Origin: an uncultured Bacteroidales bacterium
GTDB lineage: Bacteria > Bacteroidota > Bacteroidia > Bacteroidales > F082
Direction: 5' to 3'
DNA: 33,307 nt
Assembly (NCBI GenBank): GCA_900317155.1
Contig: ONFO01000041.1
Coordinates: 1-33,307, forward strand
A program made the position numbers and the translations under genes. Under the pieces are notes generated by a model that worked only from the letters and a program-made list of their open reading frames with translations, made no database searches and was not told where the DNA came from. Positions 1 to 17,581 of this stretch are shown here, in pieces (positions within the stretch are counted from its first letter, which is position 1; every line of letters starts with the position of its first letter).

Positions 1-779
1 ACCAACACAGTGTGATGGAAGTTGTTGTACTCCCAGCTGTCCTGCACCGGGTCGGTCATACCAGGATAGTAACTGATCTTAGCTCCATAATACTCTCCTT
101 GAAGAGGGAGTTTCTTCAGACTGCTTTCAGCATAGCCTTGGTCCATAACATATTGTTTGGAGCCATAGATACTGTCCGTAATAAGGCCAATTTCATGGAT
201 GTGTTCGGGACCCATGGCTCTCACCACCTGGCCACGGAAATGTCTGATTTTTTCTGACAACTCGTAAGCTTTACCTCCATTACCTGGACCTTCAGGGTTA
301 CCCATCATATATTCGGTAGGACGGTTGTAGTTGTCTCTTGACTTCACCTTTGAGGTATTGATGTCGTAGATTCTACGGCCGTTCCTCAAGGTGTCAGTAT
401 TTTTCAGCAGACCTCTTTCAAGAGCCATCGAAACAGCTTCGGCCGGAGTCCCAGCCTTGTCACATTCAATCTTCTTCACCAAGTCCCACTTAAGGGCCTC
501 GACGTAGTTGATGAGGTCGGTGGCTTCATCTCTCAGGGCTTGAGCCTGTTCCCAATAAGGACCGACTTTTTCCTGATCAAGGCCATATTGCTCCTCGAAA
601 GCAGCGTATTTCTGGGCGATCTGATTCGAAAGGGTGATGTTGGTGGTTTGCACACCGTTGTTCACCGTATCGAAGGCATCCAAGATGTCCTTCGAGACGT
701 TCATGGCTAACAAGGCAGTGTAGACCAGGTACATCATACCGATCATTTTCTGTCTTGGGGTTTCTTTTGCGCCTGACAT
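1..779 (-). CDS. gldM: Type IX secretion/gliding motor protein GldM (PorM), 5' part only
   Basis: The frame starts at 779 with MSGAKETPRQKMIGMMYLVY and stays open to the window edge, giving about 259 codons of a protein that is usually over 500 residues. The single N-terminal membrane segment (about residues 12-30) is followed by a periplasmic region, as in the GldM/PorM family. GldM forms the shaft of the type IX secretion motor; its membrane helix sits in the GldL ring and the periplasmic part contacts the GldK/GldN ring. It lies 44 bases downstream of gldL in the usual gldK-L-M order, so gldN is expected just outside the window. The C-terminus cannot be judged. Identification is firm from the N-terminal motif and gene order. 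Confidence 0.95.
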   Translation of the reverse strand, partial: MSGAKETPRQKMIGMMYLVYTALLAMNVSKDILDAFDTVNNGVQTTNITLSNQIAQKYAAFEEQYGLDQEKVGPYWEQAQALRDEATDLINYVEALKWDLVKKIECDKAGTPAEAVSMALERGLLKNTDTLRNGRRIYDINTSKVKSRDNYNRPTEYMMGNPEGPGNGGKAYELSEKIRHFRGQVVRAMGPEHIHEIGLITDSIYGSKQYVMDQGYAESSLKKLPLQGEYYGAKISYYPGMTDPVQDSWEYNNFHHTVL

Positions 780-823
780 AATCTTACTCCTTTTTTATAT
801 TAAACAATCAGGTTCGAGTAGAA

Positions 824-1669
824 TTATGCCTTGATGTTCATTGCTGACAACATTCCACCATAGACGTTGTTCAAAGCGGTCAAGCGCTGTGACAACTGGG
901 TCAACTGTTGGTTGAGTTGGCCAGCATTCTGTGATGAAGCGGTGAGGTTATCCATGTACTTGTTCATAGTTTCGGTCAACTTCTTGCTGGCAGCTGAAGT
1001 CTGCTCAGCACCTTGCAGCTGAAGCTCATAGATTGAATTCAATGACTGCATGCTGTTGGCTACCTTCTTGATGGTATTGGCATCAAGGGCGCTGAAGTCG
1101 AGCTTACCCAAAGAGTCAGACAGCTTCTGATTGGTTTGGATGTATGCGTTGGAGAATTCAGAGATGGACTTCGTAGCACGATCCATAGCGTTAGCATAAT
1201 TGGTTGTGGCAGCCATAGCATTGCTTATGTCAGCCATTTGCCCAGCATTGGCAGCCAGTTTGTCGAGACCTTTACCAATCTTATTGAAAGTTTCTTCACT
1301 GACATTCATCTTTTCAAACATCTTGCTGAGCATAGCGTCTTCCGCATTTGTGGGTTGAGCTTTGCCCGTGGCACCGGTGGTGGCAAATTGTGTTTTCTGT
1401 ACACCGTCCCAGTCTTCTTCCAACTCGACGAAAACGTTATCCCAAGCATAATCCACATGTTGAGGCTCGAAAGCCGACATAAAGAAGATTAATGCTTCGA
1501 TACCCAAACCCAAGGCCAACATGAAGTCAGCACCAGGAATGTGGGTCAGTTTGAAGTATGCACCTATCATAACCACAGATGCACCCCAACCATAGAGGTA
1601 ACCCATAAAAGTCTTGAACTTTCTCGACACGAGAAATTGTTGGAATTTGCTAAGTTCTTTTTTTGCCAT
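824..1669 (-). CDS. gldL: Type IX secretion/gliding motor protein GldL (PorL)
   Basis: This 281-residue protein has two hydrophobic helices near the N-terminus (about residues 22-40 and 48-66) and a long polar, coiled-coil-like cytoplasmic tail rich in Ser, Asn and Gln. This is the GldL/PorL layout. Glu58, inside the second helix (GLGIEALIFF), matches the conserved membrane glutamate thought to carry the proton-driven motor function. GldL forms the inner-membrane ring around the GldM helix. It sits 57 bases after gldK and 44 bases before gldM on the same strand, which indicates co-transcription. The length is in the range of Bacteroidales homologues and nothing appears broken. Confidence 0.96.
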   Translation of the reverse strand: MAKKELSKFQQFLVSRKFKTFMGYLYGWGASVVMIGAYFKLTHIPGADFMLALGLGIEALIFFMSAFEPQHVDYAWDNVFVELEEDWDGVQKTQFATTGATGKAQPTNAEDAMLSKMFEKMNVSEETFNKIGKGLDKLAANAGQMADISNAMAATTNYANAMDRATKSISEFSNAYIQTNQKLSDSLGKLDFSALDANTIKKVANSMQSLNSIYELQLQGAEQTSAASKKLTETMNKYMDNLTASSQNAGQLNQQLTQLSQRLTALNNVYGGMLSAMNIKA

Positions 1670-1726
1670 GACAATTGTAATTTTAAAAGATTGTTATTCT
1701 GTTATTTTTAATTGTTGATTTCTTGA

Positions 1727-3136
1727 TTATCTGTAAACCCTTGACATTCTCGGATTGTCACCCTTGTTACGGCCTAAGTAAGGCTGGATGCAACGGAAGC
1801 CAGTGTAGCAGTTGGCGGTATCCTGATACTGATAATCACGGGTCGTGACTTGCATATAGTAGGACACGTCCTTCCATGAACCACCGCGAACGACTTTACG
1901 TTTCATAACCGGCGGATCATCAGCCTTTGCGTTATAGGTGTAGTTGGGATTCATGTCCCAAGTGAAGTTATACGAATTGGGGTCATAGGCCGTGTTGGTC
2001 CATTCGGCCACGTTACCGGCCATGTCGTAAAGGCCCCAGCCATTGGGAGGATAGCAACCCACCACAAGGGTACGCAGACCACCGTCGGCGAGGTAGTTGC
2101 CTCTTCTGGGCTTGAAGTTGGCCATGAAACATCCCTTGGCGTTGCTAGCGTTAGGACCGCCCCACGGATAGGGGTTCAACATCTTGCCGCCACGGGCTGC
2201 CCATTCCCATTCGGCCTCGGTGGGCAGACGGAACTCAGAAAGGTCGGCATCTTTCTTGGTGCGAAGATAAGCATTGAGCAACTCTGTGCGCCATACACAG
2301 AAGGCACGTGCTTGCTGCCATGTAACACCAACCACCGGATAGTTGTCGTAGGCTGGATGCCAGAAATATTTCTCGGTCATCGGGTCATTGAATGAATAGC
2401 TGTAGTCGTGAATCCAGCAGAGCGTATCGGGATAGACGTTGATAACTTCGGCACGGGCATAAACCGAACGGTCGCTATAGCCTTGCTTACGATTCGACCA
2501 AGCGCCCTTGCGGTCCACATTAATACCAGCGTCGGCCTCACCCAAGGAATAATCGTTTTCAACCAACTTGTCGTCGGCGAAATCCTTTTTGGCTGCGGCC
2601 ACCATGTCAAACCAATAATAGGAATAATACAACTTTCTGGTATCAATTTCCTTTCTACGGAAATATCTCTCATGCTCAGGAAGATACATCGGTTCGAGGG
2701 CTTCGCGGACATCCTGTTCCTTGCTGTTCCAATCGATTTTTTCTTTCCAATTAATCCTCGGTGGGTCGTACACCTCACCCGATTTGCTCTCAGTTATGGC
2801 ATATTTGTCGGGAAAGTTGTCGGCAAGTATTCTTCTTGCGATGGAGTCTCTGACCCAATAGACAAATTGGCGGTACTCGTTGTTGGTGATTTCAGTCTCA
2901 TCCATGAAAAAGGCGGATACTGACACCGTTTTTGGCTCATTAAGATAGGATGAGGTAATGTCTTCACCACCCGCACCCATTGTAAAACTGCCTTGCGGGA
3001 CAAACACCATCCCGTAAGGATCAGGCTGATTAAAGGTCTTGTTTGACTTTCTCACTCCAACCAGCTCGCCTTGGTTTGAATTGCCGCAGGCTGTGAGCAG
3101 CAGCGCCACGGAAAACACGAACAGTAGTCTTTTCAT
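1727..3136 (-). CDS. gldK: Type IX secretion lipoprotein GldK (PorK), FGE-sulfatase fold
   Basis: The 469-residue protein begins with a lipoprotein signal peptide whose lipobox LLTAC places the acylated cysteine at residue 17. A formylglycine-generating-enzyme/sulfatase-modifying-factor fold follows. Typical blocks are visible: MVFVPQGSFTMG near residue 43, RLPTEAEWEWAARGG in the middle, and GNVAEWTNT and VVRGGSWKD toward the end. In the type IX system GldK forms the outer-membrane-associated periplasmic ring with GldN; the fold is used structurally, not as an enzyme. It heads the gldK-L-M run and has a TAnnTTTG promoter box about 100 bases upstream of its start, so the core secretion genes may be transcribed separately from porP. 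Confidence 0.96.
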   Translation of the reverse strand: MKRLLFVFSVALLLTACGNSNQGELVGVRKSNKTFNQPDPYGMVFVPQGSFTMGAGGEDITSSYLNEPKTVSVSAFFMDETEITNNEYRQFVYWVRDSIARRILADNFPDKYAITESKSGEVYDPPRINWKEKIDWNSKEQDVREALEPMYLPEHERYFRRKEIDTRKLYYSYYWFDMVAAAKKDFADDKLVENDYSLGEADAGINVDRKGAWSNRKQGYSDRSVYARAEVINVYPDTLCWIHDYSYSFNDPMTEKYFWHPAYDNYPVVGVTWQQARAFCVWRTELLNAYLRTKKDADLSEFRLPTEAEWEWAARGGKMLNPYPWGGPNASNAKGCFMANFKPRRGNYLADGGLRTLVVGCYPPNGWGLYDMAGNVAEWTNTAYDPNSYNFTWDMNPNYTYNAKADDPPVMKRKVVRGGSWKDVSYYMQVTTRDYQYQDTANCYTGFRCIQPYLGRNKGDNPRMSRVYR

Positions 3137-3231
3137 CTTCTTGACAATGATATAATTACTATTTTATTTCTTTTATTCTCTTGTTCTCATTTTGCCGACC
3201 TATAGGTACAGCTTTACTTCCTAAAAACCGC

Positions 3232-3239
3232 CAAAATTA
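3232..3239 (-). promoter_or_regulatory. -7 promoter box upstream of gldK
   Basis: The minus strand reads TAATTTTG here, an exact match to the Bacteroidetes TAnnTTTG -7 element, in the 208-base A+T-rich gap between porP and gldK. It would give a leader of roughly 90 bases. No clear -33 TTTG at ideal spacing was found. Confidence 0.5.
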
Positions 3240-3344
3240 GAAAATATTATATTTCGTTCCTCATTTTTTTCCAACTTTTTCCTTAATTTGCCTCTAAGTC
3301 AACATTTCTTTCTCTTTAAACGACCTCTATTCACCACAAAAAAA

Positions 3345-4328
3345 TCACAAATAACGGACGCTACGGTAGTCGCGCGGCGTTCGATCGAGGTCAAGCTTGA
3401 AACAATAACTCAGCCCTATTTCGTGTGAGCCTGGCAACCCTGGCAAGCCCATCGTATTAATATCGTAAGAATAGCCAATGGTCAAATCCTTGATAGTGAC
3501 ACCTGCCATTAATCCAACGGACTCTTGGAATCGGTAATTGACACCCAAAGAAAACAAATTGTTATAAATTACACGAGCACTGGCATTAAATTGTGTCGAG
3601 GCAATATCACTCATCACACTCACCGACGGGACAAAGGTCAGATAAGGCAAATCCTCAAACTGGAAGGGATAGCCAGCAACAGCATAGAATGTACGGTCGG
3701 TAGTGAAGCTGGCGCTGGTCTCTGAGTTATCACCAAGCGCCTTGGTCATGCTCTCAAGCACATTGACGACCGAAAAGCCCACATAGAACGATTCGGGAAT
3801 CTGCCAAAACAAGCCTACATTAAAGTCGAACAGCATATCGCTCTCTTCGCCCAATCCTTGCAACAAAGGGTCACCTTCCTGATTGGGATGTAATTGCGAG
3901 AAATCGACGGAACGGTTGAGAAGCGTTCCGGCCAAGCCTATACCAAGAGTTGAACCGCCCAAATCGAGATGGAAGGAGTAGCCCAAACCTACATTGACAT
4001 TGTTCTCGAAACCCAACTTGTCCTGCATGATGGAAAACTCAAGGCCACCGTGCAGTTTGCGGAAGGGCATGTCACCAGTCAAAAGGAAAGTGGTGGGAGC
4101 CACTTCGTTACCGTCCATATCCGTAAAACCCGCCCATTGCATACGATAGAGTCCCAACACATTAACACCTTCGCTCATGCCAGCAAAACCCGCATTGGCG
4201 TAAGCGTATGAATTCGAGTAGTTAGTGAAGATAGGCGCCTGTTGTGCATTCGCTTCACCGAGGAAGGTCAACAACAGAGCGAAAAGGAGGGTTATATGAT
4301 TGATTTTCGTCTTCAAATCCAGAAACAC
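3345..4328 (-). CDS. porP: PorP/SprF family type IX secretion outer membrane protein
   Basis: The 327-residue protein has an N-terminal signal sequence ending near EANAQQAP and then the PorP/SprF beta-barrel pattern: early YSNSYAYANAGFAGM, a QWAGF block near residue 70 and repeated amphipathic strands. The family is an outer-membrane barrel that links the type IX machinery to gliding adhesins or the surface. It precedes gldK on the same strand by 208 bases, matching the common porP-gldK-L-M-N order. Several PorP paralogues normally occur per genome, so the exact orthologue is uncertain, but the position beside gldK favours the core one. The C-terminal tail is polar (LDRTPRDYRSVRYL). Confidence 0.9.
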   Translation of the reverse strand: MFLDLKTKINHITLLFALLLTFLGEANAQQAPIFTNYSNSYAYANAGFAGMSEGVNVLGLYRMQWAGFTDMDGNEVAPTTFLLTGDMPFRKLHGGLEFSIMQDKLGFENNVNVGLGYSFHLDLGGSTLGIGLAGTLLNRSVDFSQLHPNQEGDPLLQGLGEESDMLFDFNVGLFWQIPESFYVGFSVVNVLESMTKALGDNSETSASFTTDRTFYAVAGYPFQFEDLPYLTFVPSVSVMSDIASTQFNASARVIYNNLFSLGVNYRFQESVGLMAGVTIKDLTIGYSYDINTMGLPGLPGSHEIGLSYCFKLDLDRTPRDYRSVRYL

Positions 4329-4428
4329 TATTGTGATTGAAACCGCGAATTTACGAAAATAGTATTTATCCGAACAAATTAATTTTCAAGCAAAACATCT
4401 AAATACTTGAATTTCAGTGTAATATTTT

Positions 4429-5907
4429 TTACTTAAACAATCTGATGATATCATTGCCATTGGCCAAGATAACCAATCCCAGCACCAGGACTAGACCCAC
4501 CGTTTCAGCCACTTCCATGAACTTGTCGGAAGGCTTGCGACGCGTTATTATCTCAAAGAGTAGGAAGAGAATATGACCACCATCCAATGCCGGGATGGGC
4601 AAAATGTTCATCACTGCTAGTGCGATGGAGAGGAAGGCCGTCATGCGCCAGAAGATGCTCCAAATCCACTGGTCGGGGAATATCTTGCCAATGGAGATGA
4701 AGCCACCCACGCTCTCATAAGCTTTAGTCTTGGGGGTGAAGATGAGTTTGACCTGTTTCCAATAGTCGTTCAACTCAGAAAAAGTCTTCTTGAAACCTGC
4801 AGGGATGGCTTGGAAGAAGGTGTATTCCTTGGTTTCCAAGTCATAATAATCGGTCAGATAAGTCTGGCAATACGCGCCTATCACACCTTCCTCGGAGAGA
4901 TGCATAGGGATTGACAGCGTGTCAGCATCGCGCAGGACAACGACAGTAACATCTTGATTCTTAAAACATTTGATGTTTTTTACAAAATCTTGATAATAAA
5001 GCGTTTCAATGTCATTAATGCCGATGATGACATCGCCACTCTTCAAGCCTCCGATTTGTGCTGCCGAATTTTCCATCACATCGGCCACGACAAATGGGAT
5101 GCGATAAGAGATAAATGCCGCATCTTGCGAACCCAACAGTTTGGTCACGGCATCCTCGGGAAGATTAATGAGGGTGTCTTTGCCATTACGCTCCACCTCG
5201 ACGGTCTTGGCCTTGTCGAGAATGATCTGCATCGGAACATCCTGGAACTTCTCGATGTATTCGCCATCAACGGCCAAAATCTTGTCACCATCACGGAAGC
5301 CCAACTCGTAGCCCAAACTATCAACTGAAATACCATATTTGTTGACTTCGGCAGTAGGCAGATACTGCTCACCTTCCTTGGCCAACAAACCGATATAGAT
5401 GACAACAGCCAGCACCACATTCATGAACACGCCAGCCACCATGATGATGAAACGCTGCCAGGCAGGCTTTGAGCGGAACTCCCATGGTTGTGGAGGCTGC
5501 TGCATCTGCGACTTGTCCATCGACTCGTCAACCATACCTGCGATCTTGTTGTAGCCACCCAAAGGGAACCAACCGATACCGTATTCCGTGCTGTCGCTGC
5601 GACGCCAGTCATCCTCAGGCAGTGTGCTGAGGTCAATAGGTTCATAGTTCTTCTGTTTTTTCCCCGCCGGGTCTGTATATTCGCTAACGGTATATTTTTC
5701 AGGCACATTCTTCGAGAAGAACTTGAAGCGCCACTGTCCGTTTACCTTCTTGCAACGGAAAAGCGAAAAACCCCAATCGAAGAAGAGGTAGAATTTCTCG
5801 ACACGAGTTTTAAAAGCTTTTGCGGCAAGGAAATGGCCCAATTCATGGACGAAAATCAAAATGGAAAGAGAGAGGAAAAACTGTAATACCTTTATTAATA
5901 TAGTCAT
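4429..5907 (-). CDS. rseP: RseP-type site-2 zinc metalloprotease
   Basis: A 492-residue inner-membrane intramembrane protease of the M50 family. The zinc motif HELGH is at residues 21-25 inside the first membrane segment, and the third ligand lies in the C-terminal LDGGH motif following MNILPIPA. Between them are an N-terminal insertion (about residues 40-130), two PDZ-like regions (about 195-260 and 270-350) and further membrane helices. Such proteases cleave anti-sigma factors and leftover signal peptides. The gene follows the M23 peptidase by 47 bases, and the pair probably forms one unit. All catalytic residues seem present. The protein is somewhat longer than the E. coli enzyme, as is usual for Bacteroidales forms. 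Confidence 0.95.
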   Translation of the reverse strand: MTILIKVLQFFLSLSILIFVHELGHFLAAKAFKTRVEKFYLFFDWGFSLFRCKKVNGQWRFKFFSKNVPEKYTVSEYTDPAGKKQKNYEPIDLSTLPEDDWRRSDSTEYGIGWFPLGGYNKIAGMVDESMDKSQMQQPPQPWEFRSKPAWQRFIIMVAGVFMNVVLAVVIYIGLLAKEGEQYLPTAEVNKYGISVDSLGYELGFRDGDKILAVDGEYIEKFQDVPMQIILDKAKTVEVERNGKDTLINLPEDAVTKLLGSQDAAFISYRIPFVVADVMENSAAQIGGLKSGDVIIGINDIETLYYQDFVKNIKCFKNQDVTVVVLRDADTLSIPMHLSEEGVIGAYCQTYLTDYYDLETKEYTFFQAIPAGFKKTFSELNDYWKQVKLIFTPKTKAYESVGGFISIGKIFPDQWIWSIFWRMTAFLSIALAVMNILPIPALDGGHILFLLFEIITRRKPSDKFMEVAETVGLVLVLGLVILANGNDIIRLFK

Positions 5908-5954: not shown

Positions 5955-6890
5955 TTAGTTTTCGACAGACTGATTAATGGTCATATAATCGGCAGGGTTG
6001 ACAGCAATGCCGTTATGCCATAGTTCAAAATGGAGATGTTCGTACTCTTCGGATTCACCCGACTTGCCCAAGATGGCAATGGCCTCACCTGCTTTCACAT
6101 AGTCACCTTCCTTTTTCAATAAGGTTGCATTATGCTTATACACAGAGAAATAACCATCGGAATGTTGAATACCGATACAATAGCCGTTGTTGATGCTCCA
6201 GGTTGAAAACACCACGGTACCTTCTAAAGTAGCGTTGATAACCTGATCCCTATCGGAAGAAATGTCGACACCCAAATGTCCTTTTTCAGCATTAAAGGCA
6301 TTTAAAATCGTACCGTTGAGCGGAACAAAGAAGTTCTTAACCAAAGAACTCGGCTTGGCTGGAGGCAGATAGTCGTCACCGAAAAGGTTATACTGGTTTT
6401 GAGCTTCATATTCAGCGCGCAAGATGCTGTCTTGCACAGATTTCTTCAGTGTAATGGTATCGGTGACACCCTTCGGCAGTGGCTCATAGATACTCAACGA
6501 GGCCAATGCGCTATCGGCGGCGAAATCGTAGCCTTCCACGATCTTCTTGATGTTGTCGAAGTAGACATCCTTTTTCTGCATCTCCTTTTCGAGCGAATCG
6601 GCACGGAGGCTAAGCAGATAGACCTCACGGTTGAGGTTGGTGTCGGTGTAGCCTGGAATGTATTCGCGCAAAGGCGTAAAGGCGATGATAAAAGTCGTGA
6701 TGATGATGAGCAGTAGGGCGATGCCGATGATGACCAGCACCAGATTCAACAAATTCAACTTGAAACCTAGTATTTCTTTTTTGGATTCATCATGTCTCAT
6801 CAAGAAGTCATATCTGCGATTCAGTTTCTTCAGCGAAACGTTGCGAAGTTTAGGCTTCTTCGGCTTTGTATTTTGGGGTGTTTCTGACAT
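5955..6890 (-). CDS. Membrane-anchored M23 (LytM) peptidoglycan endopeptidase
   Basis: The start chosen is the Met of MSETPQNTKPKK at 6890, because an exact TAnnTTTG -7 box lies just upstream at 6921-6928 and a longer reading frame would run through it. The 311-residue product has a basic cytoplasmic N-terminus, one membrane helix around residues 45-70, a coiled-coil-like stretch and a C-terminal LytM domain. Zinc and catalytic residues are visible: HLGVD (His205, Asp209), His253 in YKHN and HLHFE (His285, His287). It should cut peptide cross-links in the periplasm, so it is probably an active enzyme and not one of the degenerate LytM regulators. It is followed closely by rseP. Confidence 0.9.
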   Translation of the reverse strand: MSETPQNTKPKKPKLRNVSLKKLNRRYDFLMRHDESKKEILGFKLNLLNLVLVIIGIALLLIIITTFIIAFTPLREYIPGYTDTNLNREVYLLSLRADSLEKEMQKKDVYFDNIKKIVEGYDFAADSALASLSIYEPLPKGVTDTITLKKSVQDSILRAEYEAQNQYNLFGDDYLPPAKPSSLVKNFFVPLNGTILNAFNAEKGHLGVDISSDRDQVINATLEGTVVFSTWSINNGYCIGIQHSDGYFSVYKHNATLLKKEGDYVKAGEAIAILGKSGESEEYEHLHFELWHNGIAVNPADYMTINQSVEN

Positions 6891-6920
6891 TTTGCTATGT
6901 AATAGGTCATTAATCACCTG

Positions 6921-6928
6921 CAAAAATA
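6921..6928 (-). promoter_or_regulatory. -7 promoter box of the M23 peptidase gene
   Basis: The minus strand reads TATTTTTG, an exact TAnnTTTG match about 30 bases before the chosen start at 6890. A TTTTTG lies about 22 bases further upstream but overlaps the terminator of the preceding gene. The box supports the internal start of the peptidase. Confidence 0.6.
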
Positions 6929-6950
6929 GGAAAAAATTGCAACATACACG

Positions 6951-6986
6951 CAAAAAGGCCGACCGCTTTCGCAGTCAGCCTTTTGC
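6951..6986 (-). terminator. Rho-independent terminator after the secreted-cargo operon
   Basis: On the minus strand, CAAAAGGC-TGAC pairs with GTCG-GCCTTTTTG around a short GAAA-containing loop, followed by pyrimidine-rich sequence. It begins about 20 bases after the stop codon at 7006 and closes the four-gene cargo operon before the peptidase promoter. Confidence 0.75.
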
Positions 6987-7005
6987 TCGATTTGAAAAGT
7001 GATCC

Positions 7006-10000
7006 CTATTCTTTCACCACTACCCGCTCCGTATAGTTTCTCCCTTCTGCATCCATGATGCGCACCAGATAAACCCCTTCCACCAAATCCGCTACATCGA
7101 TCTCATTCGTCCCCCGCACGGTCTTCACCAACTGCCCAAGCGCATTGTACACCATCACTTCTGAAGCCTCGACTCCAACTACTGTTACCTTTCCTGTAGT
7201 GGGATTGGGATATAATATAAGATTCTTATTTTCAACAATTTCACTAATGCTCCATGTATCGCAAACCTCTGCCCAGTCGATGGATGGGTCTTCGGCATTG
7301 GGTGCAGGTTGCGACTCGCAAAGGTGGCCATATTCATCGCGGAATGTCATGGTGACTTTGTAGTTGTAGCAGGAATATTCTGTTTCGTCAATCGGGTCAA
7401 AATAACGCACATGGCTCCAATAGCCTGGGTAGGGGAATTGGGCGATTTTCTCGTAACTTCCATTGTCGTGCGAGCGATACAAATTGTAATGCAGATTGCC
7501 TATCGTGGGTTCTTCCAATTGTAGCAATTCTTCACCGTCCAATTGGTTATCAATGTCGGCCCTGACCATGAATGAGCCATTCAATTCAGGCTTGTACCAA
7601 CTGTCATGAAGGCAAACCCAACGACCATCATCCGTTGAGCCGTCATCGTGCGCGTAGGCGGCTGGATTTTCAATGCCTTGTTGGTGAATAACGATCCATA
7701 AAGGCCATGCCATAATCTGGTACGGATTGTCGAAGGTGAGTGTGTGCCATTGGTTTACGCCAGTGAGTTGCACGGTCTGTTGCCAAACAATCGTAGTGGG
7801 CGAATTGTAGCCTGAATAGATCAAAATGTCGTATTCCCCATCGGCAACGCTGTAAAGCGATACGCTTTTTACGAAAGAGCCCAACATGTCTGCCCCCGAT
7901 GCTTTAAAGCCCCAAGAAAGGTTTCCATCATAGCCCACCGCATCGATAAATTCCCCGTTTTCATACTGGCAATGCGCTTTGAAAAAGTCTTCTCCCCAAT
8001 GCAACTCCACGCCGTCAGTGCCTTGGCTCCATTCGGCCTCGGCTGCTATGCTACCTATTATCTCACATTCGCCGTACTGCTCAGCAAAATCGCTTTGGCA
8101 TGAGCCTGTGGGGAAGACATTGTAGTCGTTCACCTTGTAATAATAGGTGCCTTGGGAAACGGTGTCCAAGTATTCAAAGGTTTCCGATGTGTTGTCCTTG
8201 GCCAAAGCGCCAATCAAAGCATATTGATTATCCAAAATGCTCTTGCGGTAAATCTCATAGTAAGTTTTTACATCGTCGCGCAAAGGGATGTTGTCTTCCT
8301 TGTCCCAAGTCAGGCGGTTGAGTTCGTCCGTTCCGTTCAGAGGCTCGGTGCTGACTTCTAAATTCTTCGGGGGATAACATGGCCTGACCTCAATGCTTTG
8401 CAGGCAGGCTTTGGTAGGATAGTCGAAGATAAGGTGGTCATAATAGACATTTTGGATACTGTAGGTGTGTATGCCGTGAGGAACATTCTCATCGATATAA
8501 TAACATTGGTTCACGCCGTGGGCAATCAGTTCGTCATCGCGGAAGATGTCGCTATAGGCCACGCCAAAAGAAAGAGGTATATAGCCAATGATGTCGAAAG
8601 CAATGCCTTGTTGGGTTTGCGTTCCAGGGTCAAGCATGGGCTGCCATCCAGTGGTTTCGGAATAGATGCGAGCTTCGCCAGTGGTGGTCTCGCCCAATCG
8701 AGTGACAGGAATCACATGAACGTTGTCGTACAACGAGCCTTTGAACGATGCCACAAACCAATAGGTGTGATTTGGTTCCAATTCCATCCCCATTCCCACA
8801 TGTTCCAAATGGGCTAGGGTGTAAAAAACAGGCCGACTGACATCCGAGAAATCGTCCTCGCCGGTGCGGTAGATGTGAGCCCATTCATAGCAGTCATACC
8901 AACCAGAATAAAGACAATTGATGCCATCCCCACCGCCTATAGGACTTCCTCCATTCAGCGGGTCGCCGTCATAAATAGTAAGGTAGGCAGCCGTAATGGT
9001 TGAAATTGGTGTTGGGCCTTCGAAAACATAGAAGCGAAGTCCGGCAAAACTGGTGGGAGCACCTTCGGGAATGGTGAACTTGTCCATCACCTTGAAACCT
9101 GCTTCTTTGTCGGCGTTGAAACCATAGGCCGTCAAGCCGTCATGCAAGGTGCTGACATCCCAGCCGTCGTTGTATCCAGCACCTGGGTGAGTGACTACAT
9201 CGGGCTCACCAATGAACCACTTCTGATTTTCTCCGTCTTTGGATTTGAAAATCTCATACGGCGTATCCCAAGTCAGTTCCACATGGGTCGAGTCGATGAA
9301 CTTGCCGTGAAATTCGTAAACACCGTCGAAATTGGAGCAGGAAGAATAAGTGAAAGTTAACGATGTGGTATCGGAGATGCCGTCGGTGAGGATGCTTGCC
9401 ACCGAAAGGGTATAGTCGTGGCCTTCCTGCAAGGTGTCCGTGTCGATTTGGTACTCGTTTTCAATAATATCGCCAATCAGAACATCATCCAGCCACAACC
9501 TGAAACCGAGGATGTTGTTGGAAACAGGTTCTTCCGTTTCACCAATAATGCACACATTGTCGATGGCAAAATGGTCTTGGGGGTAGCGACTCTTGAAGCG
9601 GAAACGCATCTCGAAATGATGTGAAATCATCTCGGTTATTTCGCCAAGGAACCTTCCTGATTGGGCGTTCCAAGGCAAGAAAAGACTTTCCCATGACCAA
9701 GACACGCCATCACTTCTCATTTGACACTCGCCCTCGGTATCGCTCCAATCCTCCATATAATTATAGTCGAACATGACGAAAGCCCTTTTGTAGCCACGCA
9801 AATCGATGGCGGGTGAATGGAAACACTCTTCCATGTAATCTGTGCTGTTCAATTGGTTGGATTGGGCATAGAGATAGGTAGAACCGTCAGGCGGAAAGTT
9901 GAGTTGCGGATTGGTGGCAGGCGACTCAAAACGCCATGGCTCCACAATGTCGCCTTCGCTGTACAATGTCCAGCCTTCAGGCAGTTGGCCATCATTAAAG

Positions 10001-10158
10001 TCGAAAACGGTTTGTTCAAGATAATCAGGACTCACCCAAGAGGCATACCCCGTAGCTCCGACTTGCAGTTTGAACGGCTTCTGCGCTTGCCCTTGCATCG
10101 TCACCCCTCCCGCCATCAGCAGGAGCGCAAGCAGGGCATAAATCTTCAAGTATTTCAT
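7006..10158 (-). CDS. Large type IX secreted cargo protein with choice-of-anchor J-like and fibronectin-like domains
   Basis: A 1050-residue exported protein. The signal peptide (LLALLLMAGGVTMQGQ) is almost the same as in the three cargo genes upstream. Residues about 45-210 look like a MAM/choice-of-anchor J jelly-roll domain (FNDGQLPEGW, then HFAIDNVCI). Several fibronectin-III-like segments follow (for example LTWDTPYEI, LTWDKEDN and YRKSILDNQYALIG). The last 70 residues form a complete type A sorting domain with LYPNPTTGKV, NALGQLVKTV, GVYLVRI and ending VVVKE. Such proteins cross the outer membrane through the type IX system and are attached or released at the surface. The start codon overlaps the upstream stop as ATGA. 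It is the only array member with a fully intact copy of the shared NALGQLVK-type tail. No catalytic motif was recognised, so adhesion or scaffolding is more likely than catalysis. Confidence 0.85.
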   Translation of the reverse strand: MKYLKIYALLALLLMAGGVTMQGQAQKPFKLQVGATGYASWVSPDYLEQTVFDFNDGQLPEGWTLYSEGDIVEPWRFESPATNPQLNFPPDGSTYLYAQSNQLNSTDYMEECFHSPAIDLRGYKRAFVMFDYNYMEDWSDTEGECQMRSDGVSWSWESLFLPWNAQSGRFLGEITEMISHHFEMRFRFKSRYPQDHFAIDNVCIIGETEEPVSNNILGFRLWLDDVLIGDIIENEYQIDTDTLQEGHDYTLSVASILTDGISDTTSLTFTYSSCSNFDGVYEFHGKFIDSTHVELTWDTPYEIFKSKDGENQKWFIGEPDVVTHPGAGYNDGWDVSTLHDGLTAYGFNADKEAGFKVMDKFTIPEGAPTSFAGLRFYVFEGPTPISTITAAYLTIYDGDPLNGGSPIGGGDGINCLYSGWYDCYEWAHIYRTGEDDFSDVSRPVFYTLAHLEHVGMGMELEPNHTYWFVASFKGSLYDNVHVIPVTRLGETTTGEARIYSETTGWQPMLDPGTQTQQGIAFDIIGYIPLSFGVAYSDIFRDDELIAHGVNQCYYIDENVPHGIHTYSIQNVYYDHLIFDYPTKACLQSIEVRPCYPPKNLEVSTEPLNGTDELNRLTWDKEDNIPLRDDVKTYYEIYRKSILDNQYALIGALAKDNTSETFEYLDTVSQGTYYYKVNDYNVFPTGSCQSDFAEQYGECEIIGSIAAEAEWSQGTDGVELHWGEDFFKAHCQYENGEFIDAVGYDGNLSWGFKASGADMLGSFVKSVSLYSVADGEYDILIYSGYNSPTTIVWQQTVQLTGVNQWHTLTFDNPYQIMAWPLWIVIHQQGIENPAAYAHDDGSTDDGRWVCLHDSWYKPELNGSFMVRADIDNQLDGEELLQLEEPTIGNLHYNLYRSHDNGSYEKIAQFPYPGYWSHVRYFDPIDETEYSCYNYKVTMTFRDEYGHLCESQPAPNAEDPSIDWAEVCDTWSISEIVENKNLILYPNPTTGKVTVVGVEASEVMVYNALGQLVKTVRGTNEIDVADLVEGVYLVRIMDAEGRNYTERVVVKE
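7076..7130. repeat. 55-bp sorting-domain repeat, copy 1
   Basis: This segment in the tail of the 1050-residue cargo gene is identical base for base to 10189-10243 in the tail of the 307-residue cargo gene. It encodes KTVRGTNEIDVADLVEG. The flanking sorting-domain sequence diverges on both sides, so the identity is local. Confidence 0.9.
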
Positions 10159-10193
10159 CTAATCGTGATTTTGTTCGTGTAAACTTTACCTTC
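10092..10193. repeat. 102-bp gene-junction repeat, copy 1
   Basis: The block holds the last codons of one cargo gene (EGKVYTNKITIR and stop), the ATGA overlap, and the signal-peptide codons of the next (MKYLKIYALLALLLMAGG onward). It matches 11934-12035 without a mismatch. It therefore repeats a gene end plus a gene start as one module. Confidence 0.92.
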
Positions 10194-11078
10194 CACCAAA
10201 TCCGCTACATCGATCTCATTCGTCCCCCGCACGGTCTTCACCATCTGGCCGAGGGCGTTGTAGAACTGCACCTCAGAGGTTTCAAGGCCTTCAATAACAG
10301 CCCTGCCCTTTGCCGGATTGGGATATATCGAAATCGTTTGCGTATCGTTTTCTTCAGGAAGGTTTTGATATTGAGGATTGATGTAATCGCAATTGTTCCA
10401 GTAATAACTGACATGACCTATTTCCGTATCTGAGTAGCACCTCAAATAACCTCCTTCATTAGCATCGAATGTCCAATGATCTTCTGGAAACAAATAAACG
10501 CCTATAGGTCCAATTCGTTCAATGACTCTAATCGTATAAGGCTGTTGTCCATACATATAATCCCCATATCCCCAATTAGAATCTTCTGCGTCAATAATAT
10601 CAATGTATCTCAATTCTGTGCCATTGATGGTGACAGTTCCTTTTCCTTGTAGAATCATAAAACCAGCCGTATCGCCAATTATGTAATCTTGTTCAACGGG
10701 AACAGTCCAGAAGTCGCCAACATTGGCACCAAAATCAAACCATTTCATAAAGGATTGGTTCCGATATAGATATACGACATCTCCCAAGCACATTACAAAC
10801 TCTGAAGGCTTATGGTGTTCATAAACACCTTCTTCTCCGTGAAGGAAAGGATCATCAATATAAACCACTTGTTTTTTTTCAAGTTCCACGCAATTGAATC
10901 CATCTATGATAGTGTCTTTTGTTGCCTTGATGTTGACATAACCTTCTTCAAACATCCCAAAATAATTATAATGCCACTCTGCTCTCAAAGGAGCAAAAAC
11001 AATGTCGCTTTCTTGTGCTGTCACCCCTCCCGCCATCAGCAGGAGCGCAAGCATGGTCATAATTCTCGTTGTTTTCAT
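10155..11078 (-). CDS. Type IX cargo protein with shortened sorting domain
   Basis: A 307-residue exported protein whose signal peptide core is MLALLLMAGGVTAQ. The middle (about residues 25-235) resembles no domain I can name; it has repeated aromatic and beta-strand-like stretches and may be an all-beta surface protein. The tail begins like a normal type A sorting domain (ISIYPNPAKGRA, NALGQMVKTV, DVADLVEG) but jumps directly to KVYTNKITIR and stops. The usual GVYLVRI strand and about ten residues are missing compared with the 1050-residue neighbour. The tail DNA is shared in part with that neighbour (55 bp) and in part with the array member two genes upstream (102 bp). It overlaps the next gene by ATGA and starts 4 bases after the previous stop. 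Whether the shortened signal still works is unknown. Confidence 0.8.
   Translation of the reverse strand: MKTTRIMTMLALLLMAGGVTAQESDIVFAPLRAEWHYNYFGMFEEGYVNIKATKDTIIDGFNCVELEKKQVVYIDDPFLHGEEGVYEHHKPSEFVMCLGDVVYLYRNQSFMKWFDFGANVGDFWTVPVEQDYIIGDTAGFMILQGKGTVTINGTELRYIDIIDAEDSNWGYGDYMYGQQPYTIRVIERIGPIGVYLFPEDHWTFDANEGGYLRCYSDTEIGHVSYYWNNCDYINPQYQNLPEENDTQTISIYPNPAKGRAVIEGLETSEVQFYNALGQMVKTVRGTNEIDVADLVEGKVYTNKITIR
10189..10243. repeat. 55-bp sorting-domain repeat, copy 2
   Basis: Identical to 7076-7130. Its end at 10189-10193 overlaps the 102-bp junction repeat, so the tail of the 307-residue cargo gene is a mosaic of two sequences found elsewhere in the array. Confidence 0.9.
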
Positions 11079-11082
11079 TGAA

Positions 11083-12000
11083 TTATTGTTTTATCCAATT
11101 TCCGTTTTCTGCTTCTTTGTTGTTGGCACAAACCTTCCAAACATAAACCCCTTTAGCCCAAGCCGTTGCATCAATCGCCATCACATTCTCAGTAACGGCT
11201 TGGCTGTGAACGAGTCTTCCATTGGCGTCATACACTTCCACATGGGCGTTCTGCAACGCTGTGCGGATGTTGAGCGTGTTGCCGCCTGGGTTGGGATAGG
11301 CCGTTGATGCCGTTAGATCCATCAGTTCCTCAACACCCCAAGGGTCGTTAGTGACATAGGCACGAATCATCCATTGGATTTCATACCACATTTCATTGTC
11401 AAGTAGCACATCCATCCATTTGTTTTGTTCAAATTGCACCCATCTCGCATTTGGATTGGGATCGACATTGTTTTGGCTGACTGTAGCTGGGTAATAATAA
11501 TTTGTAATGTTGGTCTCGGAGAAGACTATCCAAAGGCATCGTGTCGCATCGATTTCGACAGGATGCTCCAATTCATAGCTACAGAAGTCCGACCAATTTG
11601 CAGTGGCTACCAACTGTTCGTTCATCAATACATTAGGTTCGTGTTCGGTCCCATAATACACACCCAACAACAGGTTTCCATAGTTGCATTCGTTTTCATA
11701 CATTGACACTCGGGTCAAGGTAAAGCCTTCGTATTGTTGAAGCACGGAAGAAGGGAACATCACCGCCCATGAGAACGGAATGCCATCTGGGACATAGTAC
11801 ATATTGGTATAATAAACACCATCATCATAATGCAGCCAGGCATCTTCAACAGAGAGCATAGTCGGCATTTGCAACGGGATGGCTTCTGTAACTTTACGGC
11901 TTCCAAAAAGGCTCTTCTGTTTCTCTTCCTGCGCTTGCATCGTCACCCCTCCCGCCATCAGCAGGAGCGCAAGCAGGGCATAAATCTTCAAGTATTTCAT
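11083..12000 (-). CDS. Type IX cargo protein with a distinct, intact sorting domain
   Basis: A 305-residue exported protein. The signal peptide (MKYLKIYALLALLLMAGGVT, then MQAQ) is encoded by the 102-bp repeat and equals that of the 1050-residue cargo. The middle part (about residues 45-225) contains a jelly-roll-like region with WAVMFPSSVLQQYEG and CLWIVFSETNITNYYYP, similar in style to regions of the large neighbour. The tail is a different, complete type A sorting domain: AYPNPGGNTLNIRT, EVYDANGRLVHSQ and KGVYVWKVCANN. The array thus contains two sorting-domain lineages. It lies 4 bases before the next gene. It overlaps the extended, frameshifted end of the previous gene by 107 bases. No enzymatic motif was seen. 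Confidence 0.82.
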   Translation of the reverse strand: MKYLKIYALLALLLMAGGVTMQAQEEKQKSLFGSRKVTEAIPLQMPTMLSVEDAWLHYDDGVYYTNMYYVPDGIPFSWAVMFPSSVLQQYEGFTLTRVSMYENECNYGNLLLGVYYGTEHEPNVLMNEQLVATANWSDFCSYELEHPVEIDATRCLWIVFSETNITNYYYPATVSQNNVDPNPNARWVQFEQNKWMDVLLDNEMWYEIQWMIRAYVTNDPWGVEELMDLTASTAYPNPGGNTLNIRTALQNAHVEVYDANGRLVHSQAVTENVMAIDATAWAKGVYVWKVCANNKEAENGNWIKQ

Positions 12001-13591
12001 CTAATCGTGATTTTGTTCGTGTAAACTTTACCTTCACCAATTGGCCGAGGGCGTTGTAGAACTGCACCTCATCAACCAAAGCATCTTCGGGCAACACAAT
12101 CCGTACAGTATTGTTAGTTGGGTTAGGATAAACCTGCGAGGTCCTTTCTTGCGGCTGCTGCCATTCCGGCACTTGATAAGTCGTGTAATCCACTGTGTCC
12201 GTGACATGAAGAACCCAATAATTCATAGTGTGACCATCAAAAAGTGTGTCGTTGGTGCAATAATAGTCGCCATTGTGCTCGCCAAGCATGGTTTCGGAGG
12301 TTGCTGCAATGACGTATTCCCTGTCACTCTCTTTTAAAACATCGCCAATTCCTATCCTCGAGCACATGGTGTGTCCTATGGCTCTTTCCCAAAGCAAGTT
12401 GCCGTTGGCATCTGTGCGGAACATCCAAATTTTTCTGCCCAAGTCACCAGTGGGATAGATTAGGTTTTGGGCACTTTGTACATCGCCGTCTTTCGATTCG
12501 GTAAGTCCAAACACGGTAAATCCGCCGTCTACATTTTGGAAAACCCGCCAGGGGGTATCAAACCCGCTACCGCCATAGCAACGGCTCCAGAGGATGTTGC
12601 CATCCATGTCGGTACGCAAAAGCCACACATCGGTGGTGCGGACACCGGTATGCCAATAGCCTAAATGGTAGTTGGCGTCTTGGAGATCTCCATCCTCGGA
12701 ATCACTGTTTCCTGCTAGGATTAAGCCATTGCCAAGTTCCATTAAACAATAACTGTTCTCACTATTGCTCCCGCCATAGCATCGGGTCCATTCCACCTCA
12801 CCTTGGTGGCTGAGCTTGACGAGGATGTTGTCATTGGTATAGAGCCCCACATGTATGTCGCAGGCCTCGATGGAGCCATCCCCTATGGTATAGCCCGACA
12901 AGAAGGCATAGTAACCTCCATCGGCTGCGTTGGAGAGATGGTGTATGAATTCAGTTCCCGTCGTACCAATCGAAATCTCCCACTCCACCTGCCCAAGACT
13001 ATCAAGCTTGGTAATCCATCCATCGCTTTGACCATAGTAGAGTCCTATGTCTCCTCCCTCCGAAAAGGTCAGCTGCGCCCCTCCTATCACACCTCCATCG
13101 GTGGTGGCACAGCCATATTTCTCGTAAGGGAAGCTGTAGTTCTCGTTCCCCAAGTTCCGTGACCACAGCAATTCTCCTTCCGAATCGTACTTGGCCATGC
13201 AGAGTGAAGCTTTTCCCGTTGTAGGATATCTTCCTTCACCAATAGAATAATAGACATTCTTATTGGCTATTGATCTATCTAAATCAAGAGGATAGATTGC
13301 TGGATAGCAAGTCTGCCAAAGCAGCTCACCATGGTAACCGATTTTTAGGAGCCAGTTCCCTGTAGCTTGTTGACCGAAATCGCAAGTGACCATCCCAGAA
13401 ATAGGCGAACGCCCAACTCCTGCGACAAGATACCCATCATCAGTGGGGGCTATTCCCCAAGCTTCGTCATCGCAGTTCGGCAATTGACCACCGTAGGTCT
13501 GCTGCCAATCGATGCGAAGTTGGGCTTGAAGATGAATCCCTCCCGCCATCAGCAAGAGTGCAAGCAGGGTGTAAATTCTTGTCGCTTTCAT
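11894..13591 (-). CDS. Type IX cargo protein with beta-propeller-like repeats; frameshifted C-terminus
   Basis: The first gene of the cargo array. After a signal peptide (LLALLLMAGGIHLQAQ) come at least five repeats of the type DxWLLKxDxxGxxxWxxxYGG (for example TDVWLLRTDMDGNILWSRCY), suggesting a beta-propeller-like surface protein. A sorting domain starts with QVYPNPTNNTVRI and NALGQLVK, then the frame is lost. Compared with the 307-residue neighbour, 46 bases are missing between CTTTACC and TTCACCA on the plus strand (near 12032), so translation reads through the next gene's start in another frame and stops at 11894. In the other frame the tail EGKVYTNKITIR would end at 11997 with an ATGA overlap. 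The product likely lacks a working sorting signal unless frameshifting or phase variation restores it. An assembly error is possible. Confidence 0.75.
   Translation of the reverse strand: MKATRIYTLLALLLMAGGIHLQAQLRIDWQQTYGGQLPNCDDEAWGIAPTDDGYLVAGVGRSPISGMVTCDFGQQATGNWLLKIGYHGELLWQTCYPAIYPLDLDRSIANKNVYYSIGEGRYPTTGKASLCMAKYDSEGELLWSRNLGNENYSFPYEKYGCATTDGGVIGGAQLTFSEGGDIGLYYGQSDGWITKLDSLGQVEWEISIGTTGTEFIHHLSNAADGGYYAFLSGYTIGDGSIEACDIHVGLYTNDNILVKLSHQGEVEWTRCYGGSNSENSYCLMELGNGLILAGNSDSEDGDLQDANYHLGYWHTGVRTTDVWLLRTDMDGNILWSRCYGGSGFDTPWRVFQNVDGGFTVFGLTESKDGDVQSAQNLIYPTGDLGRKIWMFRTDANGNLLWERAIGHTMCSRIGIGDVLKESDREYVIAATSETMLGEHNGDYYCTNDTLFDGHTMNYWVLHVTDTVDYTTYQVPEWQQPQERTSQVYPNPTNNTVRIVLPEDALVDEVQFYNALGQLVKVKFTRTKSRLDEILEDLCPACAPADGGRGDDASAGRETEEPFWKP
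11934..12035. repeat. 102-bp gene-junction repeat, copy 2
   Basis: Identical to 10092-10193. Here the upstream gene has lost the reading frame just before the block, so the tail codons in the repeat are out of frame, while the signal peptide of the downstream gene remains intact. Confidence 0.92.
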
Positions 13592-13619
13592 TTCAAAGTG
13601 TTTTTCTGTGTTATGCAGG

Positions 13620-13627
13620 CAAAATTA
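13620..13627 (-). promoter_or_regulatory. -7 promoter box of the secreted-cargo operon
   Basis: The minus strand reads TAATTTTG, an exact TAnnTTTG match, 29 bases before the start codon at 13591. None of the three downstream cargo genes has room for its own promoter, so this box probably drives the four-gene operon. Confidence 0.6.
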
Positions 13628-13671
13628 TTCAAAAAAACACCAAAATACCCATCTGTCAAGCCCTAAATCAG

Positions 13672-13780
13672 TTTTGTCCCTATTATTTTCGGTTTTGAAA
13701 TTTTCAATATATTGAAATTCAAATGTTTATGGAAAATCGGATATTGGGTTTGTCCCTATTTTTTTCTTGGTTTTAAGAGA
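13672..13780. promoter_or_regulatory. Direct repeats and palindrome upstream of the cargo operon
   Basis: Two imperfect direct repeats beginning TTTGTCCCTAT lie at about 13673 and 13749, and between them is a perfect 16-base palindrome TTTCAATATATTGAAA at 13702-13717. They lie about 45-130 bases upstream of the operon's -7 box, a plausible place for regulator binding. No reading frame was supported here. Confidence 0.4.
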
Positions 13781-13802
13781 AAAGACGAAACAATATACCG
13801 TC

Positions 13803-13864
13803 TGCAGCGGCCATAGATCCCAAGCCATCGCACTGCCAGCGCAGGGATGACATGTCCACTGCAG
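13803..13864. repeat. Imperfect inverted repeat in the groEL-cargo gap
   Basis: CTGCAGCGGCCATAGATCCC at the left is mirrored, with several mismatches, by GGGATGACATGTCCACTGCAG at the right. It belongs to the 429-base intergenic region 13592-14020, which holds no supported gene but carries this element, a terminator and a second palindrome. Confidence 0.4.
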
Positions 13865-13887
13865 CCTTGATGCTGAAGGTCAATAAC

Positions 13888-13923
13888 GCAAAAGACCCAC
13901 CCCTTTCGAGGCAGGTCTTTTGC
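13888..13923 (-). terminator. Probable terminator downstream of groEL
   Basis: GCAAAAGACC pairs perfectly with GGTCTTTTGC around a 16-base loop. It lies about 100 bases after the groEL stop codon and before the cargo promoter region. The U-rich part is inside the stem, so strength is uncertain. Confidence 0.6.
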
Positions 13924-13938
13924 TCGTTTTCTATCTAG

Positions 13939-13998
13939 GAACACGGATCCCACGGATTTAACGGAAATCCATCCGTGTCATCCGTGCTATCCGTGTTC
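13939..13998. repeat. Palindromic ATCCGTG repeat element
   Basis: The outer arms GAACACGGAT (13939-13948) and ATCCGTGTTC (13989-13998) are perfect inverses. Inside, CACGGAT and ATCCGTG form a second pair, and ATCCGTG recurs three times at about ten-base intervals. It looks like a REP-type dispersed palindrome just after the groEL gene. Confidence 0.6.
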
Positions 13999-14020
13999 AA
14001 TGATTATCCGCGTTTCAGGA

Positions 14021-15655
14021 TTACATCATCCCGTCCATTCCTCCGCCCATCGGCATCGGAGGTGTGGGAGGCGTAGGCTCCTTGTGGTTGCTGATGACGC
14101 ACTCGGTGGTCAGCAGCATGCCAGCGATGGAAGCAGCGTTCTCCAAGGCGACTCTCGACACCTTCACGGGGTCAATGACACCCGTCTGGAGCAGGTTCTC
14201 ATACACCTCGGTGCGTGCGTTGAAGCCGAAGTCGTTCTTGCCTTCCTTCACCTTGTTGACGACGACCGAGCCTTCCAAGCCGGCGTTCTCAACAATCTGG
14301 CGCAGCGGCTCTTCCAAAGCGCGCTTGATGATGGCGATACCCGTGGTCTCGTCCTCGTTGTCGCCCTTCATCTTCTCGATGGCCTTGATGGCACGGATGA
14401 AACCGACACCACCGCCAGGGATGATACCCTCTTCGATGGCAGCACGAGTGGCGTTCAAAGCGTCCTCGACGCGGTCTTTCTTCTCCTTCATCTCAACCTC
14501 GGAAGCGGCACCCACGTAGATGACTGCCACGCCACCAGCCAACTTGGCCAAACGCTCTTGCAGTTTCTCGCGGTCGTAGTCGCTCGTGGTGGTCTTGATT
14601 TGGGCCTTGATCTGGGCGGTACGGCCTTCGATGTCCTTCTTGGCGCCGTGGCCGTTCACGATGGTGGTGTTGTCCTTGTTGATGCTGACCTTGTCGGCCT
14701 GACCGAGCATTTGCAGGTCGGCATCCTCAAGCTTGTAACCCTTCTCTTCGCTGATGACGGTGCCACCAGTCAGGATGGCGATGTCTTCCAACATCTCTTT
14801 ACGACGGTCACCGAAGCCAGGAGCCTTGACGGCAGCGACTTTCAGCGAGCCACGCAGACGGTTGACAACCAAGGTAGCCAAGGCTTCGCCGTCGATGTCC
14901 TCAGCGATGATGATGAGGGCACGACCGGTTTGCAAGGTCTTTTCGAGCACGGGCAGCAAGTCCTTCATCACGGAGATCTTCTTGTCGTAGATCAGGATGT
15001 AAGGATTCTCATAGACGGCTTCCATCTTCTCGGTGTTGGTGACGAAGTAAGGCGAGATGTAGCCACGGTCGAACTGCATACCTTCGACGACGTCGACGTA
15101 GGTGTTGATGCCCTTGGCATCCTCAACGGTGATGACGCCTTCTTGCTTCACCTTGCCCATAGCCTCGGCGATGAGGCCACCGATTTCGCTGTCGTTGTTG
15201 GCAGAGATAGTAGCCACTTGCTTGATCTTCTCATTGTCGCCGTCGACCTTCACCGACATCTTCTTCAGCGAAGCGACCACAGCGGCAACAGCCTTGTCGA
15301 TACCGCGTTTCAGGTCAAGCGGGTTGGCACCGGCGGTGACGTTTTTCAGACCCGTGGCCACGATAGCTTGGGCCAACACGGTGGCGGTGGTGGTACCATC
15401 ACCAGCGAGGTCGTTGGTCTTGGAAGCGACTTCCTTCACCAACTGGGCACCCATGTTCTCAACGGGGTCGATGAGTTCGATTTCCTTGGCGACCGTCACA
15501 CCGTCCTTGGTGATTTGGGGAGCGCCATATGACTTTTCGATGACCACGTTACGACCTTTGGGGCCGAGGGTCACCTTCACTGCGTTTGACAATGCGTCGA
15601 CGCCTTTCTTCAGGCCGTCACGCGATTCGATATTGAAAAGAATGTCTTTTGCCAT
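14021..15655 (-). CDS. groEL: Chaperonin GroEL
   Basis: A 544-residue chaperonin of standard length. Recognisable blocks include the start [36 protein letters not shown], the nucleotide-binding [13 protein letters not shown] near residue 86, GGGVGFIRA around residue 412 and the flexible Met/Gly-rich tail ending GGGMDGMM. The 14-mer ring folds client proteins in ATP-driven cycles with GroES. It starts 46 bases after groES on the same strand and surely shares its transcript. A hairpin terminator and a palindromic element follow the stop. Confidence 0.99.
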
Positions 15656-17528: not shown

Positions 17529-17581
17529 CTCGAAATTTTGTTGAGATATGGACACTTTTGAGTGTTATTGTCGGAACAAAT
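17511..17581. repeat. 71-bp direct repeat, left copy
   Basis: The block runs from the last MATE codons through a hairpin to the last ATPase codons (LFRQ and stop on the minus strand). It matches 19053-19124 with one inserted A and one substitution. The two copies bracket the ATPase gene. Confidence 0.9.
17515..17559. terminator. Bidirectional terminator between MATE and ATPase genes
   Basis: AAAAGTGTCCATA and TATGGACACTTTT are perfect 13-base arms, with CTC/GAG also pairing inside. It serves the convergent ends of both genes, overlapping the MATE stop codon. A second copy is at 19058-19102. Confidence 0.75.

Follow-up and report, generated by a model that had tools for sequence, protein, structure and literature searches.

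The window analysed here, 33,307 nucleotides (nt) in length, is contig C63 of the draft genome (G000; 3.80 Mb, 65 contigs) of an uncultured Bacteroidales bacterium, and it carries four tandem genes, cargo1 to cargo4, for predicted cargo proteins of the type IX secretion system (T9SS) between groEL and a gene for an M23 peptidase-like protein. All features from groEL to porM, spacers and junctions included, lie on the minus strand, and the cargo genes are numbered in the order of transcription. groEL (14021..15655; NCBIfam GroEL, 857.8 bits) forms the left flank of the variable interval and is followed by the open reading frames (ORFs) of cargo1 (11894..13591, 565 amino acids (aa)), cargo2 (11083..12000, 305 aa), cargo3 (10155..11078, 307 aa) and cargo4 (7006..10158, 1050 aa) and, as the right flank, by the M23 gene (5955..6890), whose product is related to M23 models with all scores below their cut-offs. 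The spacer between groEL and cargo1 (13592..14020), which we aligned with three empty and four occupied sites, contains a terminator-like stretch and presumably also the promoter of the cargo genes. The spacer between cargo4 and the M23 gene (6891..7005) is largely common to empty sites and contains what by eye is a terminator-like hairpin. Downstream of the M23 gene follow rseP and the T9SS core genes porP, porK, porL and porM (3..5907), the last being cut at the window edge; RseP, PorP, PorK and PorL scored above their NCBIfam cut-offs and the PorM fragment below.

The first-pass annotation of this DNA had described four adjacent exported proteins with shared signal-peptide DNA, and the four ORFs indeed begin with copies of a 73-nt family that are 71-100% identical to the reference copy; the encoded putative N-terminal signal peptides look typical by eye. 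At the other end, all four proteins passed the NCBIfam threshold for the T9SS type A sorting domain, which is 23 bits (cargo1 25.3, cargo2 41.1, cargo3 23.2 and cargo4 49.1 bits), cargo3 barely so, and cargo1, the tail of which is truncated, remained under the Pfam cut-off of 27 with 23.9 bits. Given this domain and the T9SS genes in the same genome, cargo1 to cargo4 are predicted T9SS type A cargo. By eye, three of the tails belong to one sorting-domain lineage, as had been proposed, and that of cargo2 belongs to another. The two perfect repeats reported earlier also proved exact: one of 102 bp spans a gene end and the next gene start at two junctions (10092-10193 and 11934-12035), and one of 55 bp links two tails (7076-7130 and 10189-10243). 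A 57-base piece of the 102-bp repeat occurs at two places in the window and in none of 100 shuffled sequences, even when three mismatches were allowed. The 102-bp repeat at 11934..12035 joins the cargo1 tail end to the cargo2 head (copy 1 of a junction module that we call J1) and that at 10092..10193 joins the cargo3 tail end to the cargo4 head (copy 2); the stop codon of cargo3 and the start codon of cargo4 overlap (ATGA). In addition, cargo1 has a first-position head of the MKAT type (13520..13591; MKATRIYTLLALLLMAGG...) and cargo4 a last-position tail (7006..7161).

Between these ends lie the middles. That of cargo1 resembles beta-propeller proteins (CylK chains, E 7e-15; the SBBP family scored below its cut-off), that of cargo4 occupies 7193-10086, and cargo4 had no match among PDB sequences. 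Structure models were of low confidence, with a mean predicted local distance difference test score of 53.3 for cargo2 and 31.6 for cargo4. When compared with cargo1 of a related genome (G021), the tails of cargo1 and cargo3, as assembled, lack 79 and 33 bp, respectively, the 33-bp segment being internal to the cargo3 sorting domain. The two breaks reach exactly as far as the left edge of the 102-bp repeat, and by eye short shared strings (GAAG and GGAAGG) are present at them; the cargo1 frame continues out of frame into the signal-peptide DNA of cargo2. A third shortened tail is found on contig C62 of the same genome. Separately, two cargo genes with broken sorting domains were seen in another relative (G084; L234, contig C43), one of which breaks at the LGQLV motif, as is also seen in the window, judging by eye.

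We compared the interval between groEL and the M23 gene across 99 draft genomes of the same genus, one per species and our own included. Loci were collected by a search with the M23 protein, by searches with the cargo middles and by DNA searches with head plus spacer and tail plus spacer, 30 loci being taken from each of the latter, in the tail search out of a longer list. The number of cargo genes in the interval ranges from 0 to 4. In the 23 genomes (G000 among them) with groEL and M23 on one contig, a count that was read by hand and in which groEL of G024 and G032 was recognised via an antisense ORF, the site is of array type in 10, of another type in two and without recognised cargo in 11; in the subset obtained from the M23 search alone (n=16), the respective numbers are 5, 2 and 9. 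Three empty sites (G028, G043 and G049) have kept most of the M23-side spacer and lack the 429-bp groEL-side spacer. Elsewhere, G092 has a non-cargo ORF between groEL and the first cargo gene, and G055 and G080 have an ATPase gene between the last cargo gene and M23. The flanks are well conserved: groEL is 93-96% identical at the nt level in six of seven relatives compared, in some over part of the gene only, and lies outside the fetched stretch in the seventh, while the groEL-cargo spacer is 94-96% identical in G029, G003 and G055 and the part of it nearest the cargo genes is found again, together with the head, on other contigs at about 86-90%. A comparison of the locus in related genomes had been proposed as a check on the first reading, and it showed that gene content is not invariant, since both gene number and middles vary among related species.

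Within array-type loci, the ends of the cargo genes follow position. With labels assigned by hand, the MKAT-type head is present in 15/15 groEL-linked first genes versus 2/22 non-first genes, and the tail class R[VLT][VAI]VK[EDK], which we defined after the tails had been seen, in 16/16 last genes versus 0/18 others at the locus (14/16 last genes for the strict form R[VL]VVK). Fisher tests gave 1.5e-8 for heads and 4.5e-10 for tails; the genomes are related, so that these values overstate independence. Of the first-gene entries, seven of the 15 (G002, G041, G092, G079, G030, G084 and G080) came from the head query or later fetches and the other eight did not; at loci not found by the head query, the MKAT head is seen in 8/8 first and 0/12 non-first genes. 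The counts leave out G012 and G022 altogether, their cargo being of another type, and, as first genes, those of G093 (head MQTT) and G019 (head MKAT), for which groEL is not in view, and further the out-of-frame last tail of G084, the non-last tails of cargo1 and of the broken G084 genes and the non-first head of the last gene in G041; the second gene of G019 was kept as non-first. At other loci, 9/59 cargo-like ORFs carry the MKAT head and 1/59 the tail class, and for this reason neither is unique to the groEL-M23 locus.

The middles do not follow position in this way. After trimming of the tails, the first genes include five families that blastp does not connect with one another (cargo1-like, g486, g520/g525, g518 and cargo4) and the last genes four (cargo4, g479, g306 and g492); further first and last genes gave weak or tail-derived matches only. 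The cargo1 gene is first and has the head MKATRIY in G000 and G029, and is internal with MKYLKIY in G021. Likewise, cargo4 comes last with MKYLKIY or MKHLKFY in G000, G021 and G089, and lies directly after groEL with MKATKLY in G082, where the other end of the cargo4-type gene is on a separate contig. G021 and G092 have no middle in common, and yet M23, the spacer and the final 156 nt of the last gene are 95.2% identical between them at the nt level and the groEL side 94.5%.

The internal junctions are similarly conserved across species. J1 consists of the tail end KVYTNKITIR, an overlapping stop-start and the head MKYLKIY, and was found in 10 junctions of eight genomes, which gave 45 pairs with a mean identity of 94.5% over 90 nt. 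For the 32 pairs in which both flanking middles differ, the mean is 95.5% (82.2-100%). J1 of G000 is 95.6-100% identical to that of G021, G029, G055, G079 and G092, whereas M23 of the same pairs is 70-78% identical (the G055 slice of M23 is offset by a few bases, so that its figures of 70.0-76.7% are approximate). A second module, J2, links different middles on either side in four junctions with a mean identity of 96.5%.

We then find some of the middles themselves in other species, at other loci or between other ends. The cargo1 middle is 99.78% and 99.64% identical at the nt level in G021 and G029, where M23 is at about 78%; these are the only near-identical copies among the 99 genomes, all other matches being partial and at 66-76%. 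Perfect identity had been said to be limited to the gene ends; between species, high identity is not confined in this way, and the middle sometimes matches better than any other part (99.8% for cargo1). The cargo3 middle matched G028 at 99% and G049 at 100% over 629/670 nt, in both cases at other loci and with an empty groEL-M23 site; in G064 the match, at 94%, is on a short contig that carries neither groEL nor M23, and G057 and G013 matched more weakly. For cargo2, the best match among the 99 genomes was 74% over part of the middle. The cargo4 middle was found in seven further genomes at 78-93%, whole or in part, and more weakly in another four. G049 has this middle at another locus, within a gene whose head and tail are unrelated; the gap-free alignment covers 2894 bp at 89.5% identity, starting at gene nt 73 and stopping 17 nt beyond the PNP codons. 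The same arrangement is seen in G083 at 83.5%. Tabulation of 88 cargo-like ORFs revealed further pairs with middles at least 93% and tails at most 77% identical. The points at which similarity ends vary, from gene nt 1 to 73 in the head and, in the tail, between about 17 and 164 nt beyond the PNP codons (one gene in this comparison, case H, is offset by a few bases), and in some pairs similarity continues into the flanks. Among related species, ends and middles therefore do not evolve together, as the same middle occurs with different ends.

Our preferred explanation, to which we assign a probability of about 0.78, is that the middles of tandem T9SS cargo genes have been exchanged between species by homologous recombination at their shared ends. 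The earlier idea that recombination shuffles middles between export signals is supported in this form by the variation in gene number, by the same ends on different middles and by the same middle on different ends. According to this model, the groEL-M23 interval would serve as a site for tandem T9SS cargo genes, whose left end (spacer and first signal-peptide DNA), right end (last tail and spacer) and internal junctions are similar across species. Between them, the middles vary in number and kind, and some recur in near-identical form in other species, where their order, locus or ends may be different. Incoming DNA would be integrated through general homologous recombination at the conserved sequences of heads, tails, junctions or flanks; an entering middle would usually be in frame with signal peptide and sorting domain, and the secreted or displayed proteins would turn over while export is retained. 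The DNA may possibly arrive by natural transformation; genes for ComEC and DprA are present, as they are in 10 and 11 of 14 control genomes, respectively. It is conceivable, if rather doubtful, that the stop-start junctions are kept as handles for recombination across species and that a gut, probably rumen, community pools the middles in an integrase-free cassette system for T9SS cargo.

Several observations weigh against exchange at shared ends. The ends of the G049 and G083 genes are unrelated to the array type, so that homologous ends alone cannot explain the swap, and the similarity ends are those of BLAST alignments and not modelled breakpoints. J1 of G089 is diverged (82-86% to all others), and between G089 and either G021 or G092 it is, at 83-86%, below M23 at 93-94%. 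The link between ends and position is loosened by the two non-first genes with MKAT heads, by the after-the-fact definition of the tail class and by G012 and G022, in each of which the single cargo gene is of a different type, head and tail included; when these two are counted, heads fall to 15/17 and tails to 16/18 (Fisher 1.1e-6 and 4.2e-8). Some loci, moreover, came from queries that contained head or tail, which favours such ends, several contigs break within the groEL-M23 interval or have one flank only, and with one genome per species exchange within a species is not seen.

We weighed this model against four others. Tandem duplication of one cargo gene, with divergence of the middles and conservation of the export signals by selection, would fit the heads and tails common within one genome, the functional constraint on export signals and the relatedness of some middles at the site (e.g. 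44-72% protein identity). However, several middle families show no similarity to each other by blastp (E<1e-3), middles at least 99% identical occur in other species with other ends, and the junctions are almost the same at the DNA level, even at silent sites, where M23 is at 70-78%. We consider duplication very improbable and rejected it on the grounds of the near-identical middles on different ends. A dedicated site-specific system, in which an integrase or invertase acts at the junctions, would suit the compact and conserved J1 and J2 and the position of cargo2-cargo3 between direct 102-bp repeats (1842 bp repeat spacing), but the points where similarity stops are spread over head and tail without a fixed crossover site. 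No tyrosine recombinase, of six in the genome, is on the array contigs C9, C41, C42, C62 and C63 (no search covered serine recombinases or transposases), and none was found among the scanned window proteins, which do not comprise all ORFs. Because the similarity ends vary and no tyrosine recombinase is linked, general homologous recombination is favoured, and fixed-site recombination, rejected for the same reasons, appears highly unlikely. Of the proposed cassette-type diversification, what stands is that middles are exchanged between ends; the evidence speaks for general homologous recombination and not for a dedicated cassette machine.

Chimeric short-read joins at repeats could also mimic shuffling. 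The contig-start pairs C62/C9 and C28/C55 share exactly 99 bp (28 contig ends of the 65 contigs were examined), pointing to a word length of about 100 in the assembler; the 102-bp repeat is hence near the apparent resolution limit and linkage through it is uncertain. Two window tails also break exactly left of this repeat, and the local gene order in this genome could be wrong. On the other hand, the near-identical cargo1 middle is found in contigs with diverged flanks (G000, G021 and G029), and both J1 and the link between ends and position are seen again in other, separate assemblies, for which reason a purely assembly-made pattern was rejected; as a full account, artefact seems to us quite improbable. 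The recurrence of J1 is also a partial answer to the doubt, raised with the first reading, that the repeats might be assembly duplicates. Somewhat less so, though still unlikely, is the horizontal transfer of whole genes or operons in which the ends play no special role. Some shared blocks are indeed longer than one gene, such as a pair in G055 and on G000 contig C62, and some run into the flanks. Several similarity tracts, however, stop inside genes, in head or tail, with unrelated flanks, and the ends track position and not the middle.

A row of exchangeable genes is also the hallmark of integron gene cassettes. The array is like them in this respect and differs in that no linked tyrosine recombinase was found and that the junctions are coding sequence. 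With rhs C-terminal displacement it has in common a constant and an exchangeable module, the variable part being C-terminal in rhs and in the middle here. The same holds for the polymorphic toxins as far as described in the text of PMC3482391 that we examined, which does not mention type IX secretion or T9SS: their variable part is a C-terminal toxin domain, while here the middle varies and the C-terminus is a sorting domain (toxin domains were not specifically searched for). For type VI effector-immunity modules of Vibrio cholerae, the sections of PMC5361080 considered report homologous recombination with variable breakpoints and no specific integration site found; these modules resemble the array in having conserved flanks and non-homologous exchangeable parts, with variable (BLAST) similarity ends in our case. 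Unlike them, the array has its middle exchanged with export signals at both ends, consists of tandem, partly overlapping genes and belongs to type IX secretion; immunity genes were not searched for here. Closest in secretion system are surface proteins of Porphyromonas gingivalis, some of them T9SS cargo, which, according to the parts of PMC5266723 consulted, undergo domain rearrangement and allelic exchange, with a gingipain gene 99.5% identical in P. gulae. T9SS cargo diversity there likewise arises via recombination and gene transfer, though for adhesin domains or alleles of named genes and, in those parts, mostly within one species, in contrast to the unrelated middles with position-linked ends among species described here. 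In the open-access literature searched, outside which most subscription papers lie, we came across no account of T9SS cargo whose middles are exchanged while the ends stay linked to position. The kind of exchange is already known elsewhere; what appears to be new is that a middle is swapped within tandem T9SS genes whose export signals go with position.

Such exchange would offer uncultured gut Bacteroidales a concrete and testable route for renewing secreted or surface proteins with export left intact. It would also mean that trees of T9SS cargo built from signal peptide or sorting domain need not follow the functional middle, and the case suggests that arrays of this kind are prone to breaks in short-read assemblies.

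The source genome holds further arrays. A 115-nt junction query gave 20 matches on contigs C63, C62, C41, C9, C25 and C42, at least 150 Por_Secre_tail matches were counted (150 scored of 225 candidates), and additional tandem cargo genes, alike in their heads and with tails of two lineages, are present on C41, C62, C9 and C42. The starts of C62 and C9 (L021:1-398 and L024:1-398) are nearly identical; each also has a 59-bp overlap with the C42 end, which leaves an open assembly branch within a cargo gene. Genes for proteins of about 500-600 aa with similar C-termini are interspersed among cargo genes (L023:962-2629 and L021:9464-11056); of two such proteins scanned, one gave a LuxR-type helix-turn-helix match below cut-off and one gave tetratricopeptide repeat matches, and these genes are possibly array-linked regulators.

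Elsewhere in the window, a glycoside hydrolase family 95 gene lies near the locus (24122-26344), and a 475-aa ATPase (ATPase_2/DUF234; 17565-18992) is 99-100% identical at the protein level in G021, G018 and G047 and 96% identical at the nt level in G021. M23 in these three genomes is just 79-84% identical at the protein level, and the near-identity of the ATPase by comparison suggests that its gene was recently transferred.

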